Notes under the pieces: model-generated
Told to the model about the DNA's origin: nothing
What the model saw: the letters and a program-made list of their open reading frames with translations, nothing else
The model's database searches: none
Made by a program: the position numbers and the translations under genes
Source of the DNA: an uncultured Clostridia bacterium
GTDB lineage: Bacteria > Bacillota > Clostridia > TANB77 > CAG-508
NCBI GenBank assembly: GCA_947629045.1
Contig: CANRCF010000008.1
Span: 1-50,652 of the forward strand
DNA: 50,652 bases
Reading direction: 5' to 3'
Shown: piece after piece, positions 23,158 through 32,543 of the stretch
Numbering within the stretch: the first letter of the stretch is position 1
Layout of the letters: each line of letters opens with the position of its first letter

Positions 23158-24726
23158 TTACTTACTTTCTAACAAAGAATGATATTCTACTGATTTTTCA
23201 TAATTTTCATTTAATTCTTCATCTGTTAATGCTCTACTATATAATCTCATTGCATAAACTTTCATATTAGGGTAAATCCAACTACCGGCGCCATTCATAC
23301 TCGTACGTCCTATACAAATCTTATTTAAACTATCAATTCTATTTTTTAAATTATCCCAATATCTTTTATAATACCAACCATTTCCGATGTATTTTCCATT
23401 TACATATAGTTTTATTTCAAAAACTGTTTCATTGTTTAACTGTTTTTCTATTTTAGGATTGAACGTAACACTTACATAGAAATCACCTTCCCTTTCTAAT
23501 CTAGCTACGGCCGTTGCGTTCCATCCCAAACCGACTACCGTCACTATTACCTGATACTCCCCACACTTCTCTATCACTAGGCCCTATTTCAGGGTATCTT
23601 TCATTCCCCTTCACACCAGCTGTCCACACAACACCTAATTCATTACCATTTCGGAGCAAATTAAAATGCAAATCGGCATAATCCTTCTCATCACCATTCC
23701 ACCAACCAAATCCACCACCAGTACTCGTAGTTTTCTTTTCCACTTCACCGTTCCCAACATCATACACGAAAAGAGCTTTTGTGGTATCTCCATAAAATTC
23801 AAAAGTAAAGCCCTTTTCAATTAACTCATCTTTTCTTTCCTTATTATAATAATTAACTTCAATCCAGTCATCTTCCCCATCAAAATTAAATGATTTATTA
23901 GTTAAACCACTATTTTCACTTGGATTTTCTAAGTCGAAACCATGTAATTCTACACCTTCTCCAAATTGTTTTTCAAGATTTTCTTTGGTTGGTTCAATGT
24001 CTGTGTCTACTATTGATGAATCTATATTTATTATTAAACTATCATCTTTTACTGCTAACATATCTCCTGCTGATAAACGTATATAATTATCTTCTTCTAA
24101 TTGTTTTATTTCTCCTGTTTCATAATTTATTAAAAAACTATGTTCTGCTTTTCCATAACCTTTTAATTCCGTTCCTTTTTCTAAAAAATTCCATCCTGTA
24201 CCATAAGAATTTTTATCTCCTGTTTTTTCTACTACTATATCCCATGTACTGCTATTTTTTAATTCTTTATCTAGTAGGCTCTTTCCTAAAAGTTCCTCTT
24301 TATTTCCTGAAAATTTTCCCAGTTGATAAGATGCTACAGAAACTTGTAATACTTCTTTTTCACTTGTAAGTTTTGTCTTCTCTCCTGCTTCTTTGGCTAA
24401 TTGTAATATTCCATTATCTCCAAACACTACTGTTATACTTACCGATGCCAAAATCAAAAGCACTACAATTGTTACTACTAAGGCTATTAGTGTTATTCCT
24501 GAAACTGCATTTAATGTACTTTTCATGCTATTATCTTTTCTAATACTTTGCATTTTTAGTATATTGCTTGCATTATCATTTACACTTCTACCTTGCGTAA
24601 GCTTTGTAGTGCATATAAATAACGGTCTATTTAAGTTATATAAACCTTTCCTTTCTTCTATTTTTCTTAAATTACGGCTCTCTCTCTCTCTCTCTCTCTA
24701 GAGCCACAAGCGTTTTTAGTTTTCAT
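23158..24726 (-). pseudogene. Prepilin-like surface protein with LamG domain; reading frame broken twice
   Basis: The intact pieces are 24553-23501 (350 aa) and 23577-23158 (139 aa). The first contains a type IV prepilin-type N-terminus, SGITLIALVVTIVVLLIL, with Gly before the hydrophobic helix as for prepilin peptidase. A linker and the first half of a LamG/concanavalin-A-like domain ('FDGEDDWIEVNYYN') follow. The second piece carries the rest of that domain, ending 'MRLYSRALTDEELNENYEKS'. The switch lies near 23520, where one extra base (or two missing) separates GSRFG from WNATAV. The only strong ribosome-binding site (AAGGAGG) serves the ATG at 24726, which is separated from the pilin frame by an (AG)11 tract. 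Frame restoration at the tract would add a 57-codon leader. Either mutation, phase variation or assembly error is possible. Confidence 0.7.
24678..24699 (-). repeat. (AG)11 dinucleotide tract in the 5' end of the prepilin gene
   Basis: Eleven CT units on the plus strand, (AG)11 in the coding direction, lie 27 nt into the frame that starts at 24726 and are enclosed by GGCTCT and CC. With 11 units the frame stops two codons after the tract (GCC GTA ATT TAA). With 10 or 13 units it continues without stops into the prepilin frame. Confidence 0.9.
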
Positions 24727-24894
24727 GTGTTCTCCTCCTTCTTTTAGATAATATTTTGTAATTATATGTTTTTAGTTTCATAACACTAAATTACATTATA
24801 TTATCTATTCCTTTTTTCTTATTTAGTATTATGAGTGTTATTTTTTATTCTATTCGTTAATTGCAATTATTTTCGCACTCATGTGTATAATTTA

Positions 24895-24923
24895 TTTATA
24901 ATATAAATCGTTTTTATTGTCAA
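24895..24923 (-). promoter_or_regulatory. Promoter of the LamG prepilin-like gene
   Basis: On the minus strand TTGACA (24923-24918) is 17 nt from TATAAA (24900-24895). The start would lie about 160 nt before the ATG at 24726, leaving a long structured leader. The same elements occur in the second copy. Confidence 0.65.
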
Positions 24924-24942
24924 TACACATTTTTTTATTTTC

Positions 24943-24973
24943 TGAATATTTTTTCATTTTATGGAAAATAATA
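24943..24973 (+). promoter_or_regulatory. Possible forespore (sigma-G-like) promoter of the gerA operon
   Basis: TGAATA (24943-24948) and AATAATA (24967-24973, consensus CATAATA) are 18 nt apart and about 35 nt before gerAA. This fits the sigma-G/F pattern expected for a germinant receptor, but AT-rich sequence makes chance matches likely. Confidence 0.4.
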
Positions 24974-25007
24974 TAAACAAGTATAAATATAAAGGATTGA
25001 TAATAAA

Positions 25008-26859
25008 ATGAGTCTTTCAAATACTGAAAATAAGCAAAATAAAGACAATTCTAATTTCAAGCAAATACTAACTGAAAAATTAGAATATATTTTTGATTCT
25101 TCTAAGAGACATGATTATAACTTTACTCTTAATGAGCCTTCTAAGAAGAATAACAACAATAGCGATTCTAATTCCTATAACAATAGCAGTAAAAATGGCA
25201 ACAATAATAACAGTAGCGATAATTCTAGCAATAGTAATTATGCTAATACCTCAAATAATGGCAAACCTCAAAACGAAAATAGTTTTGAAGCAAAAAATAT
25301 TTTTGACAATCTTGATGTTAGCTTAGAATATATAAAAGAAAAATATAATACTTCAATTAATAGTGACATTATTACTCGTGAGTTTACTCTAACTGCTAGA
25401 AATAGGCAATATAAAGCTCTACTATTTTTTATAGATGGTATGGTTGATTCTGAGCTTATAAATGATAATGTTTTAGAAGCTTTGATGATGAGAAATAGAG
25501 CTAATATGTTTAACAGAGATCAAGACCAAGTAATATCAGAAGCTAAAACTAATAATATTACTGTAAGAAAAGTAAAAAAGTTTAATTTAGAGGATTATAT
25601 TTTTGATAGCTTGCTTCCTCAAAACAATGTTAAAAAAGTTTCTACCTTTTCAAAAGCTTTTGAAGGTGTAAATATTGGAAACTGTCTTCTTTTTGTAGAT
25701 ACACTTAGCGTTGCATTTGACATTGATGTAAAAGGTTTTAAGCAAAGAGAAGTAAGTACACCTAATAATGAAATTATTATTAAAGGTCCACAAGAAGCAT
25801 TTGTGGAAAACATTAGGACTAACACTTCTTTATTAAGAAGGCTTGTTAATAGTGAGCACTTAATTATTGAAAACGTGGAGGTTGGAAAAATAAGCAAAAC
25901 TAAATGTGCCATTTGTTACATTGATAATATTGCAAATAGCGATTTAGTTTCTGAAGTAAAATATAGAATAAATAACTTAGACATTGATTCACTTCTTTCT
26001 TCTGGAGAGTTAGAGCAATTAATTGAGGAAAATAATAAATATAGTATTCCTCAAATGTTATCTACTGAAAGACCTGATAAAACAACAAAATATTTGTATA
26101 GCGGTAGAGTTGCTGTTTTAATTAGTGGAAACCCTTATTGTTTAATTATGCCTGCTACTTTAATTGATTTTATTGCTTCTCCTGAAGATACAAATTTAAA
26201 GTTCCAGTTTTCTAACTTTTTGAAGTTTTTGCGTTTACTTGCAATTTTTATTACTTTGTTTTTACCTGCACTTTATGTTGCAGTTACTGACTTTCATCAA
26301 GAGTTACTTCCGACCGAACTGCTCTTTGCCCTAATGGCTTCTAGGGAAAATGTACCTTTTCCAGTTATATTTGAAATTTTGATTATGGAAATTTCTTTTG
26401 AGCTTATTCGTGAAGCTGGAATTAGGGTTCCATCCCCTCTTGGCTCTACCATTGGTATTGTTGGCGCATTAGTTATCCGGACAAGCTGCAGTTAGTGCAA
26501 GTATAGTAAGTCCTATTTTAGTAATTGTTGTTGCTATTACTGCTGTTGCATCATTTGCTATTCCAGACTTTTCTTTTGGTTTTCATTTAAGACTTATGAG
26601 ATTTATTTTTATAATACTCGGTTATATTGCAGGTTTTTTTGGAATTGGTTTAGGTATTTTTGTTTATTTATGTATTTTGACAAGCCTAAAGTCTTTTGGT
26701 GTTCCATATATGGTGCCTTATGCGCCTGTTACTCATGTAAATCACAATGGATATTTCTTAGACCCAGTTTGGAGGCGTGAAGAAAGACCGGATTATTTAA
26801 ATACTAAAAAGGAAAAATCCCAAGCACATATTAGTATGAAGTGGAGATATAAAACTTAA
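25008..26859 (+). pseudogene. gerAA: Spore germination receptor subunit A (GerAA family), single-base frameshift
   Basis: GerAA-type proteins are the membrane A subunit of germinant receptors in the spore inner membrane. The open frame 25008-26495 (495 aa) has the soluble N-terminal domain and the membrane part with 'EISFELIREAGIRVPSPLGSTIGIVGALVI'. It then breaks. Deleting one C at 26477-26478 restores the family sequence GQAAVSASIVSPI and runs on to 26859, for a total of about 616 aa. The N-terminus has a striking Asn/Ser-rich stretch (about residues 45-85). The operon continues with gerAB and gerAC. Whether the shift is real or a sequencing error is open. Confidence 0.88.
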
Positions 26860-29964: not shown

Positions 29965-31308
29965 TTATTCTTTTACATAAAGTACAATTCTGAACCCAGC
30001 ATCTCGGTAACCAGCGGTCGTGGTATCTGTATCGCCTGCACGCGCACTCGCAGGATAAATATTTCCAGATGCACTTAAATATCCACCTCCGCGCCCAACT
30101 TTATAGGTTTCTGTTGGCATTAAATCATTTTGTGTTTTATGTTTCCCTTCTTCTGTTGTCATTTCCCACATATTTCCCGCAAAGTCGTATATATTCTTTG
30201 CTTTGTTTCTTTCTGTTATTCCGGTCGCTAGTTCATATCCTTTTATGGATTCTCCTCTTTTTATTTCAAAGTATGAATTCTCACTAGTTCTACTATAGTA
30301 TGTTGGATTACTCCATACGTTATTATCAAAAGTAAAGACCGCATATAATCCACTAATCATATAATCTTTTGCTGATATGTTGTTTCCCCAAGATGTACTA
30401 TCTAACACATCTATTCCGTCATTACTTAACCATGTGCATATTGTGTCCCATGCGTATGAGTCTATTAGTCTACTTGTTACTGAATCATTATTCTGATATA
30501 TTTTCTTTGATAATTCTTTTGCATTTATTTGACTTATATAGTTCCATGCTTGTAATCCTTTTCTTGATGCTGGTAAATCTTTTTCTTCTACTTGGTCAGC
30601 TGATTTATTTCTATTTGCTGCGTTTGCTTTATCTGTATATTTAGTAGTTTCATCATAGTTTATACTCTCTGGCACTCCTGCTTCATATCTTCCTACATAA
30701 AAGCCTCCGTATTTCGCTACACTTTCTTCTCTTTTTACAATTTTCTGTTCTTCTTCACTTTCTTCATCTGTCCAATCTGTATATTCATTATATTGCAACG
30801 TTTTATCTTTCCATGTTTCTTGGTCTTGCTTGTATTCTAGACTCACACCATCTGCTGGTATCCATACAAATTGGTTACAATCTGTTCTTGCTCTTTCGAC
30901 ATTTTCATTTGTTACAGATTTTATAACGTCTGTTATTTCATATATTACAAATCCATCTTTTATTGTATTTTCTCCATCTGCTTCAGAACCTACAAATCCT
31001 TTTGGCACTGGCACTATTCCTCCATCTTTTGTTGTTACTGCTGTTACTTTGCTTGAGTCCCAACTTAATGATTTTATATAACTTGTCATATACCCTATAT
31101 TTTCTTTATCACTTTTTACCGCTTCATTTGTTTTTTCCCCTGCTTCTTTTGCAAGCTGTAATATTCCATTATCTCCAAATACCACTGTTATACTTACTGA
31201 TGCCAAAATCAAAAGCACTACAATTGTTACTACTAAGGCTATTAGTGTTATTCCTGACACTGCATTTAATGTACTTCTCATGCTATTATTTTTTCTAATA
31301 CTTTGCAT
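29965..31308 (-). CDS. Prepilin-like surface protein with FGE-sulfatase/C-type-lectin-like domain
   Basis: The 447-aa frame begins with the same prepilin-type N-terminus as the LamG protein (SGITLIALVVTIVVLLIL after a charged leader). A second domain (about 150-447) resembles formylglycine-generating-enzyme folds: 'YGGFYVGRYEAGVP', 'NIYDFAGNMWEMTTE', 'GRGGGYLSASG' and a terminal GYRDAGFRIV. The paired cysteines of active FGE enzymes are absent from that last region, so binding or display is likelier than catalysis. The ATG at 31308 has no ribosome-binding site. The strong site serves an ATG at 31481 in a different frame because of an (AG)11 tract; a shift would add 57 codons. The gene's 3' end is visibly GC-richer than the rest. 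Confidence 0.78.
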   Translation of the reverse strand: MQSIRKNNSMRSTLNAVSGITLIALVVTIVVLLILASVSITVVFGDNGILQLAKEAGEKTNEAVKSDKENIGYMTSYIKSLSWDSSKVTAVTTKDGGIVPVPKGFVGSEADGENTIKDGFVIYEITDVIKSVTNENVERARTDCNQFVWIPADGVSLEYKQDQETWKDKTLQYNEYTDWTDEESEEEQKIVKREESVAKYGGFYVGRYEAGVPESINYDETTKYTDKANAANRNKSADQVEEKDLPASRKGLQAWNYISQINAKELSKKIYQNNDSVTSRLIDSYAWDTICTWLSNDGIDVLDSTSWGNNISAKDYMISGLYAVFTFDNNVWSNPTYYSRTSENSYFEIKRGESIKGYELATGITERNKAKNIYDFAGNMWEMTTEEGKHKTQNDLMPTETYKVGRGGGYLSASGNIYPASARAGDTDTTTAGYRDAGFRIVLYVKE

Positions 31309-31432
31309 TTTTAGTATATTACTTGCATTATCATTTACACTTTTACCTTGTGTAAGCTTTGTAGTGCATATAAATAACGGTCTATTTTTGCTATATAAAC
31401 CTTCCCTTTCTTCTATTTTTACTAAATTACGG

Positions 31433-31454: not shown

Positions 31455-31647
31455 AGAGCCACAAGCGTTTTTGTTTTTCATGTGTTCTCCTCCTTCTTTT
31501 AGATAATATTTTACAATTTTTACATAGCTACTTATTATAAGTTAAAATATTTCATATTATCTATCTTTTTTCTTACTTAGTATTATGAGTGTTATTTTTT
31601 ATTCTATTCGTCAATTCAATTATTTTCACACTCATGTATACAACTAA

Positions 31648-31676
31648 TTTATAATATAACTTATTATTTTTGTCAA
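31648..31676 (-). promoter_or_regulatory. Promoter of the second prepilin-like gene
   Basis: TTGACA (31676-31671) and TATAAA (31653-31648) on the minus strand, spacing 17, match the first copy exactly in layout and give a leader of about 160 nt. Confidence 0.65.
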
Positions 31677-31715: not shown

Positions 31716-32543
31716 CTATTTATTTTTAATAATTTCTTCTTTGCTTAATCCTGTAATTTCTATTATTGTCTCTAAAGGAATATTTTTTTCTAACATTTTC
31801 TTTGCATCTTCTAATTTTGCTTCTTTTATTCCCTTGTTATAACTTTCACTTAATCTACTATTTTCATCTAATATCTTCTTTTCTCTTAAATCTGCTATTC
31901 TCTCTAAATATTCATCTTCACTCATTTCTTCTAGTTTATTTACTGCTTCATTTAATTCTTCATTTTCTTTCATTTTTTCCTTCACCCTCTCCGATTTAGG
32001 ATTTTCCAAAAATGATAACCAGTCTATTAACTCACTTCTTGCTTCGTCCTCTATTATCTTTGGCAATTCTATTATAAACAACTCTAACTTATCTGTCAAT
32101 ATTAACTTTCTGTTTTTCTCCTCTATTATTTTCCATTTTGTTATGTATTCTAGCTCTTCTAATCCTTCTACTTTAAAATCTGCTATTAATATTACTATTG
32201 TTTTTTGTAAATTTTCATATTTATTTCCTTTTTTTATTTGCCTACTATATACTCTGCTCCAATAGTATAGTATTCTTTCTTTTATTGTCGTTTCTGACTC
32301 TAACTGCATCTCTATATTACATTTTTCTTTTCCATTTATTGTTGCTATTACATCTAATATTCCTAGCTTGTCTAATACTTTTTCTCTTCTTAATATTTGA
32401 TTTTTACTTAAATCTATACTATCTATCTTTTGTTCTAATATACTTTCTAAAAATCTTTTGGTTATTCTTTCGCTTCCTACTTCTCCAAATAATACTTGAA
32501 ATACTACATCTATTTTTGGAGATAATAATTTCTTTTCGCTCAA
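31716..32543 (-). CDS. Rpn-family recombination-promoting nuclease / PD-(D/E)XK transposase-like
   Basis: The 275-aa protein starts with 'LLSPKIDVVFQVLFGEVGSE' and has the nuclease core 'LGILDVIATINGKEKCNIEMQLE', where D, E and Q fit a PD-(D/E)xK site. 'RILYYWSRVYSRQIKKG' follows, as in the Rpn/PDDEXK_2 family. Family members in E. coli (RpnA) promote RecA-independent recombination, and the family is often multicopy in clostridia. A Glu-rich C-terminus ends 'ITGLSKEEI'. Translation begins at TTG 32543 with GAGG 8 nt upstream. It stands alone beside the repeated prepilin region. No terminal inverted repeats are seen. Confidence 0.85.
   Translation of the reverse strand: MSEKKLLSPKIDVVFQVLFGEVGSERITKRFLESILEQKIDSIDLSKNQILRREKVLDKLGILDVIATINGKEKCNIEMQLESETTIKERILYYWSRVYSRQIKKGNKYENLQKTIVILIADFKVEGLEELEYITKWKIIEEKNRKLILTDKLELFIIELPKIIEDEARSELIDWLSFLENPKSERVKEKMKENEELNEAVNKLEEMSEDEYLERIADLREKKILDENSRLSESYNKGIKEAKLEDAKKMLEKNIPLETIIEITGLSKEEIIKNK

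Follow-up and report, generated by a model that had tools for sequence, protein, structure and literature searches.

A tract of eleven AG units, (AG)11, that separates a good translation start from the frame of a prepilin-like protein raises the question of whether the gene behind it is switched by changes in repeat number. The tract lies on a stretch of 50,652 nucleotides from an uncultured Clostridia bacterium (the window, which here means that whole stretch). Comparison of the sequences suggests, with a probability of about 0.86, that (AG)n lies in the first codons of a leader and acts there as a phase switch through slipped-strand changes, whose output would be a protein fusion, an attenuator or translational coupling. 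The initial annotation of this DNA had proposed a phase-variable switch at one tract; a second (AG)11 in the window, 21 tracts in the genome, a further break in the frame of the LamG-like gene and terminator-type loci elsewhere have been added to it.

Two AG tracts in the window

The features of the first locus are the following.

24918..24923, minus strand: -35-like TTGACA, recognized by eye, with a spacing identical to that at locus 2
24895..24900, minus strand: -10-like TATAAA, 17 nt after the -35, recognized by eye
24734..24740, minus strand: AAGGAGG Shine-Dalgarno sequence
24700..24726, minus strand: head of leader 1, start codon (ATG, 24724-24726) and nine codons
24700-24714, minus strand: nucleotide box AACGCTTGTGGCTCT, the last 15 nt of the leader 1 head
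24678..24699, minus strand: (AG)11, the candidate switch tract, out of frame as assembled
24667..24669, minus strand: stop codon met at n = 11
23504..24676, minus strand: open frame after the tract, with 59 leader codons up to the G that precedes ITLIALVV and the prepilin-like ORF behind them
23501-24553, minus strand: prepilin-like ORF (first ATG at 24553, no Shine-Dalgarno sequence)
23158..23577, minus strand: distal LamG-like half of the gene, in another frame, with a PF02973 match

The tract is not a product of chance, since for AGAGAGAGAGAG, an uninterrupted 12-nt AG run, the expected number in the window is 0.00, with occurrences in 0 of 100 dinucleotide-preserving shuffles. The initial annotation had described AAGGAGG and an ATG followed after nine codons by (AG)11, standing between the only good start site and the prepilin frame, and this geometry is indeed found on the minus strand, with the tract at 24678-24699. 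It had also stated that the frame stops within a few codons at 11 units and is opened by 10 or 13 units: reading from the leader ATG at n = 11 gives 19 codons, up to the stop at 24667-24669, and at n = 1 mod 3 a 57-codon leader opens into the ORF starting at 24553. That ORF has no ribosome-binding site of its own, again as claimed. A promoter consensus scan omits the boxes of locus 1, its rule being a T at the last -10 position, and returned fewer promoter-like sites than in shuffles.

The LamG-like gene carries a second frame break: the ORFs 23501-24553 and 23158-23577 overlap in different frames, so that this copy would be truncated even in the productive phase. The break (within 23158-24553) is far downstream of the AG tract, and by eye there is no repeat there. 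The distal LamG-like half matches PF02973 (sialidase N-terminal) with an E-value of 1.5e-5 and 25 bits, just under the Pfam cut-off of 26.

The same leader is found at a second locus.

31671..31676, minus strand: -35-like TTGACA, recognized by eye
31648..31653, minus strand: -10-like TATAAA, 17 nt after the -35, recognized by eye
31489..31495, minus strand: AAGGAGG Shine-Dalgarno sequence
31455..31481, minus strand: head of leader 2, start codon and nine codons
31433..31454, minus strand: (AG)11, the candidate switch tract, out of frame as assembled
29968..31431, minus strand: open frame after the tract, leader and then prepilin-like ORF (29965-31308)

The prepilin-like ORF of locus 2 ends in a C-terminal FGE-sulfatase domain (PF03781, E 2.5e-5). 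A hairpin search gave no terminator within 420 nt after either window tract, nor in 24400-25050; both loci are therefore assigned to the fusion type. Upstream of locus 2, ORF 31716-32543 has by eye the look of the Rpn/PD-(D/E)XK nuclease family; L039 has an ORF like it on the downstream side, and a shorter ORF at L045 resembles its end.

Paralogous tracts in the same genome

The genome that contains the window (1.36 Mb in 34 contigs) has 21 AG tracts of at least nine units: nine with 11 units, three with 12, two with 13, three with 14, one with 10 and three with 9, two of these last being cut by a contig end and one interrupted. Each stands about nine codons after a ribosome-binding site and start codon. 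A 351-nt leader query, for which 40 out of 156 candidates were scored, gave at least 31 copies or pieces.

At ten fusion loci the only frame that stays open continues into a prepilin-like ORF; after the tract it measures 391-624 codons, and it is opened by n = 1 mod 3 alone. Unit number varies from 11 to 14 among paralogs with flanks 91.5-94.8% identical. One of the ten, L046 (n = 13), is natively in frame and forms one contiguous ORF; the remaining nine, to which both window loci belong, are out of frame. This spread of n over 11, 12, 13 or 14, together with a copy assembled in frame, supports the phase-variable reading of the initial annotation.

It might be objected that the tract is only a neutral remnant of an old microsatellite, carried along when the leader was duplicated, and that the prepilin genes use an internal ATG or are dead. 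The nine out-of-frame loci of the ten full ones would fit a relic, as would the second frame break of the LamG-like gene and the weak constraint on the leader peptide. In nine fusion leaders, 16 synonymous and 39 nonsynonymous changes were counted where 11.8 synonymous ones are expected (P 0.09). Strong purifying selection on the leader peptide was considered and rejected, this synonymous excess being weak; if the leader is cut off by prepilin peptidase, little constraint on it is to be expected. The other observations speak against a relic. In-frame starts between the tract and the prepilin core have no Shine-Dalgarno-like word in any of the ten paralogs, and L048 has no in-frame internal start in this interval. 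At nine of these loci the leader frame has stayed open for 59 codons, and in L048 for 36; L046 is in frame, and in nine genera the open frames enter hairpins of several different sequences (see below). A relic is thus very unlikely, and a phase switch is preferred.

The locus at the start of contig G000:C4 (L032, n = 12) and that at the start of G000:C16 (L046, n = 13) have a distinctive 47-nt head in common; they could be one locus in two phases or two near-identical loci, the likeness being suggestive only. Loss of mismatch repair was also considered as a cause of the long tracts and set aside: a MutS-V search found two MutS-family genes in this genome, which gives no sign of such a loss.

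Tracts in relatives

For comparison, 80 stretches were chosen by hand from 18 relatives among the tracts listed, leaving out some high-count genomes (G001, G020, G100, G121 and G191). The resulting set has 100 unique tracts from 19 genomes, after L098 (a duplicate of the same stretch) and L135 (a separate locus) had been dropped for identical 60-nt flanks. The 87 tracts with at least 260 nt downstream enter the frame and hairpin counts; the other 13 have less. The initial annotation had proposed comparing unit number in relatives: a fixed value of 11 is not seen, n ranging from 9 to 21 over the 100 tracts, with 25 at one further contig end, and the minimum of 9 is set by the lower limit of the search pattern.

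A start codon preceded by a Shine-Dalgarno sequence was found for 97 of the 100 tracts, at 23-30 nt in 75 of the 97 (ties broken towards 28 nt). In 75 of the 87 tracts a stop is met within 7 codons in two of the frames, and not before 20 codons in the third (11.9 under the null); 12 break this one-open-frame rule. A repeat placed between the start and the productive frame, one productive frame, and a unit number that varies among relatives and paralogs are, as far as assembled sequences can tell, the marks of an SSR contingency locus.

As assembled, 17 of the 87 tracts are in frame and 67 out of frame, 3 being unscored. The in-frame share (17/84) is below one third, which could reflect selection for mostly silent genes, shared ancestry at n = 11, or errors in the choice of start. 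According to what the open frame runs into, the 87 tracts comprise 16 fusion loci (open frame of at least 200 codons), 57 with a short frame and a hairpin, 10 with a longer hairpin, 2 with coupling and 2 unclassified, L116 (weak hairpin) and L151 (no hairpin).

Among 195 genomes sampled from the family, at least 61, in at least 21 of 39 genera, have tracts of at least nine units, with up to at least 30 tracts per genome. When 143 genomes were sampled at the level of the order, 26 of 88 from the family and 2 of 55 from other families had one. The box pattern described below returned 54 stretches from a contig database, 52 of them titled as uncultured Clostridia or Clostridium MAGs (records of the window's own genome were perhaps omitted). 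Outside Clostridia, the box and AG repeat were seen in a Gastranaerophilales MAG (L201) and a Bacteroidetes MAG (L198), perhaps by chance, contamination or transfer.

Leaders that run into predicted terminators

The most frequent class combines a short open frame with a predicted hairpin of -9 kcal/mol or better and its T run. This attenuator layout, an SSR leader ORF upstream of a predicted intrinsic terminator, is found in relatives and at six loci of the window's own genome. In all 57 leaders with a short frame and a hairpin (15 genomes, nine genera, one family), the stop of the open frame lies beyond the 5′ edge of the hairpin, and in 39 the frame reaches the hairpin end, less 6 nt, or passes it. 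Of the 114 other frames, 112 end before the hairpin, at a distance of 15-154 nt; the two exceptions are an out-of-frame stop beyond the edge in L128 and one exactly on the edge in L112. Under a Markov null, 15.2 of 57 leaders would have any frame open to the hairpin, any frame being counted because the open frame is defined as the longest of the three. With one locus per genome, 15 of 15 enter the hairpin, for a P of about 10^-13.6 if genomes are independent; a hairpin core of the GATAGACTA/TAGNCTGTC type is common to 13 of the 57, spread over five genomes (by a rough pattern), so genomes are not fully independent, and paralogs are not independent of each other. The other loci show several different stems. 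Among twelve re-examined loci, ten fit with longer hairpins.

These hairpins could instead be ordinary terminators of a stand-alone small gene, the genes downstream having their own promoters. A downstream gene with its own Shine-Dalgarno sequence is indeed present after 54 of the 57 leaders (the search required one), 48-492 nt after the open-frame stop in 52 of them. The position of the hairpins does not agree with this: in a control of 286 long stop-to-stop frames from the window and 54 other loci, 53 have a nearby hairpin, which starts after the stop in 46 and overlaps the coding end in 7, whereas in all 57 leaders the open frame ends only after the hairpin has begun. Ordinary termination is for this reason a highly improbable account of these loci, and attenuation controlled by the leader frame is preferred.

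Instead of entering a hairpin, the open frame may end at the next gene. In L119, L113 and L114, the last two also among the 57, it ends on the next start codon, and in L038 it ends just past one. The region of L038 (G000:C6:20000-24000) is phage-like by eye, with weak PHROG support, and has small genes behind AG13, AC14 and AC14 leaders.

AC repeats and interrupted tracts

Some leaders have an AC repeat instead of AG (L050, L052, L054, L055, L057, L058, L272-L274, L306 and L308); they stand before fusion or attenuator genes, and in them the (AC)n tract is followed by a conserved CTTTACAGAATTGGTGGACAGTCTGG, which L308 has in a variant form, and by a few AG units. Of 11 (AC)n tracts with at least eight units, those of L057 and L306 and the second of L038 are natively in frame. 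At six of the 11 the open frame enters a hairpin; at the others it leads to a fusion at two (461 and 490 codons), meets a stretch in which no hairpin was found at two, and stops short of the hairpin at one, the second L038 tract. The other frames close less sharply than in AG leaders, after up to 32 codons.

The AC leaders bear on the possibility that the repeat is kept for its peptide, which would act in stalling or signalling, and not for frame switching. Read from the leader ATG, the AG tracts of the window's own genome do encode Arg-Glu repeats. An AC unit in leaders of similar layout encodes a different peptide, which argues that the repeat peptide is not what is kept; nor is the unit number held to multiples of three, and 67 of the 84 scored tracts are out of frame. 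A function of the Arg-Glu peptide itself is extremely unlikely beside these observations, and frame switching remains the preferred role of the repeat.

A transposon reading of the (AC)n leader was tried and is weakened by two copies with unique host sequence directly upstream and by similar leaders in relatives. Some AG tracts are interrupted by a shared sequence that begins with ACTGTCCGTYRAATAG, at contig ends of the window's own genome (L042, L051, L053, L056 and L059) and of genome G152 (L285 and L286, with L276). The interrupting sequence (ACTGTCCG and following) runs into the contig end in seven of seven contigs, which belong to two species of one genus and carry different leaders. It is possibly an insertion element that lands in AG tracts; its interior was not found. 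A search with its left end against 195 genomes gave matches in 190, nearly all of them short, A/T-rich and without weight; the close matches were restricted to the window's own genome and the two contig ends of G152, from the same genus.

A conserved box before the repeat

The pattern AAMCSSTTGNNGCTST (at most 4 mismatches) directly precedes the repeat in 97 of 100 tracts and in 19 of 19 genomes, against 0.34 per 100 shuffled heads, a figure that measures likeness and is no independent test because the consensus was drawn from the same heads. Aligned in a single register, the box falls in phase 2 in 39 tracts and in phase 0 in 29, and in some leaders similar boxes stand before AC instead of AG. 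This could point to a function as DNA or RNA, or to shared ancestry in the course of which frames have shifted. Among all loci gathered, many of them by means of that pattern, the box is followed by AG in 93 cases and by other sequence in 22; the reversed pattern gave 12. Exact-match scans of viral contigs gave 0 matches for the box pattern, the L038 head and two junction patterns; a loose pattern (AGGA, ATG and eight AG units) gave 39 viral loci.

It may be proposed, with considerable doubt, that the box and the dinucleotide tract directly behind it form a reusable phase-switch cassette. With its box kept at the nucleotide level across genera, this cassette may be copied between genes, be recognized by something that keeps or drives the repeat, and serve as a preferred landing site of the element with the end ACTGTCCGTYRAATAG.

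Products of the candidate switched genes

The label prepilin-like is used because of a hydrophobic G-ITLIALVV start, recognized by eye, weak NCBIfam matches in three relatives, and the presence in the same genome of genes for a prepilin peptidase (PF01478) and a T2SSF-family protein (PF00482). The NCBIfam matches, to GspG or PilA, are under the cut-off (L095, L115 and L138), and the window proteins gave none. A Pfam scan of 20 proteins, one of them the distal LamG-like piece, gave no prepilin match. Over the curated cut-offs it found FGE-sulfatase in window:29968-31431 and in L034, and Big_2, Flg_new, Big-like and one more Ig-like domain in the L036 protein; FGE-sulfatase is below the cut-off in three more of the scanned proteins.

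Proposed mechanism

The model builds on what can be read in the assemblies: the geometry of the leaders, the asymmetry of their frames, the coincidence of open frames with hairpins and the differences in unit number. Ribosomes would start at the AAGGAGG/ATG of the leader, and slippage in vivo would change n. In the fusion mode, which would apply to both window loci, n = 1 mod 3 would let them read through the tract and the leader into the prepilin-like protein, which could then be displayed at the surface by way of a type IV pilus system; with any other n they would stop within a few codons, before later in-frame starts that have no ribosome-binding site. In the attenuator mode, that of most of the relatives compared, an in-frame leader ORF would enter the intrinsic-terminator-like hairpin, and the ribosomes would prevent termination so that the downstream gene is transcribed; out of frame, they would stop short of the hairpin. 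In the coupling mode, at a few loci, the in-frame ORF would end on or just past the next start codon, leading to translational coupling. The same module stands before many genes of the genome and of the family, most of them for surface-type proteins.

In Bacillus, transcription is said to outrun translation, which would weaken antitermination by ribosomes. Streptococcus gallolyticus shows that it can work in a Gram-positive bacterium: experiments on its Pil1 locus found that transcription rises with longer leader peptides, which destabilize a premature terminator (PMC3894217).

Relation to known systems

The phasomes of Neisseria and Campylobacter consist of many loci in which an SSR near the 5′ end of the coding sequence leaves one productive frame out of three, and often concern surface proteins. 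The present loci are similar to these contingency loci in the position of the repeat, the single productive frame in three, the number of loci per genome and the surface proteins. They appear to differ in that one leader module with a dinucleotide tract is reused before different genes, and in that the hosts are uncultured Clostridia, with MutS-family genes in the genome of the window.

The closest likeness is to Pil1 and Pil3 of S. gallolyticus as far as the accessible account goes (PMC3894217): there too, an SSR lies in a short leader ORF with its own Shine-Dalgarno sequence and ATG, the frame sets ribosome access to a premature terminator, and surface (pilus) genes follow; the terminators of the present loci are predicted. 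The same account concerns a cultured species, in which two pilus operons carry GCAGA pentamers, whereas the repeats described here are AG or AC dinucleotides, with up to at least 30 tracts per genome, before prepilin-like, Ig-repeat and phage-like genes. Direct fusion and coupling, proposed here, were not met in those portions of the S. gallolyticus account. In Clostridioides difficile, invertible promoters give phase variation by site-specific inversion, as a review describes (PMC11868660). Phase variation in a clostridial gut organism is the point in common; the C. difficile mechanism is inversion, as opposed to the repeat slippage proposed here.

A search of the open-licence literature, without preprints, found a repeat-switched leader peptide combined with a terminator only in PMC3894217, and nothing on dinucleotide phase variation in such Clostridia, this absence being no proof. 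As far as these searches show, the class of mechanism is known, and the scale, the reuse with three outputs and the host group are new.

Significance for the family

If the proposed mechanism is correct, a little-known family of uncultured Clostridia would have a large repeat-driven network of phase variation, using a mechanism for which the literature searches otherwise gave only one streptococcus and its pilus operons. For annotation, the true starts of many surface genes in these genomes may hide behind out-of-frame tracts. A single leader module with three outputs would make it possible to test in what ways one stochastic switch is put to repeated use within a genome, and the surface proteins of these bacteria would be predicted to vary strongly from cell to cell.
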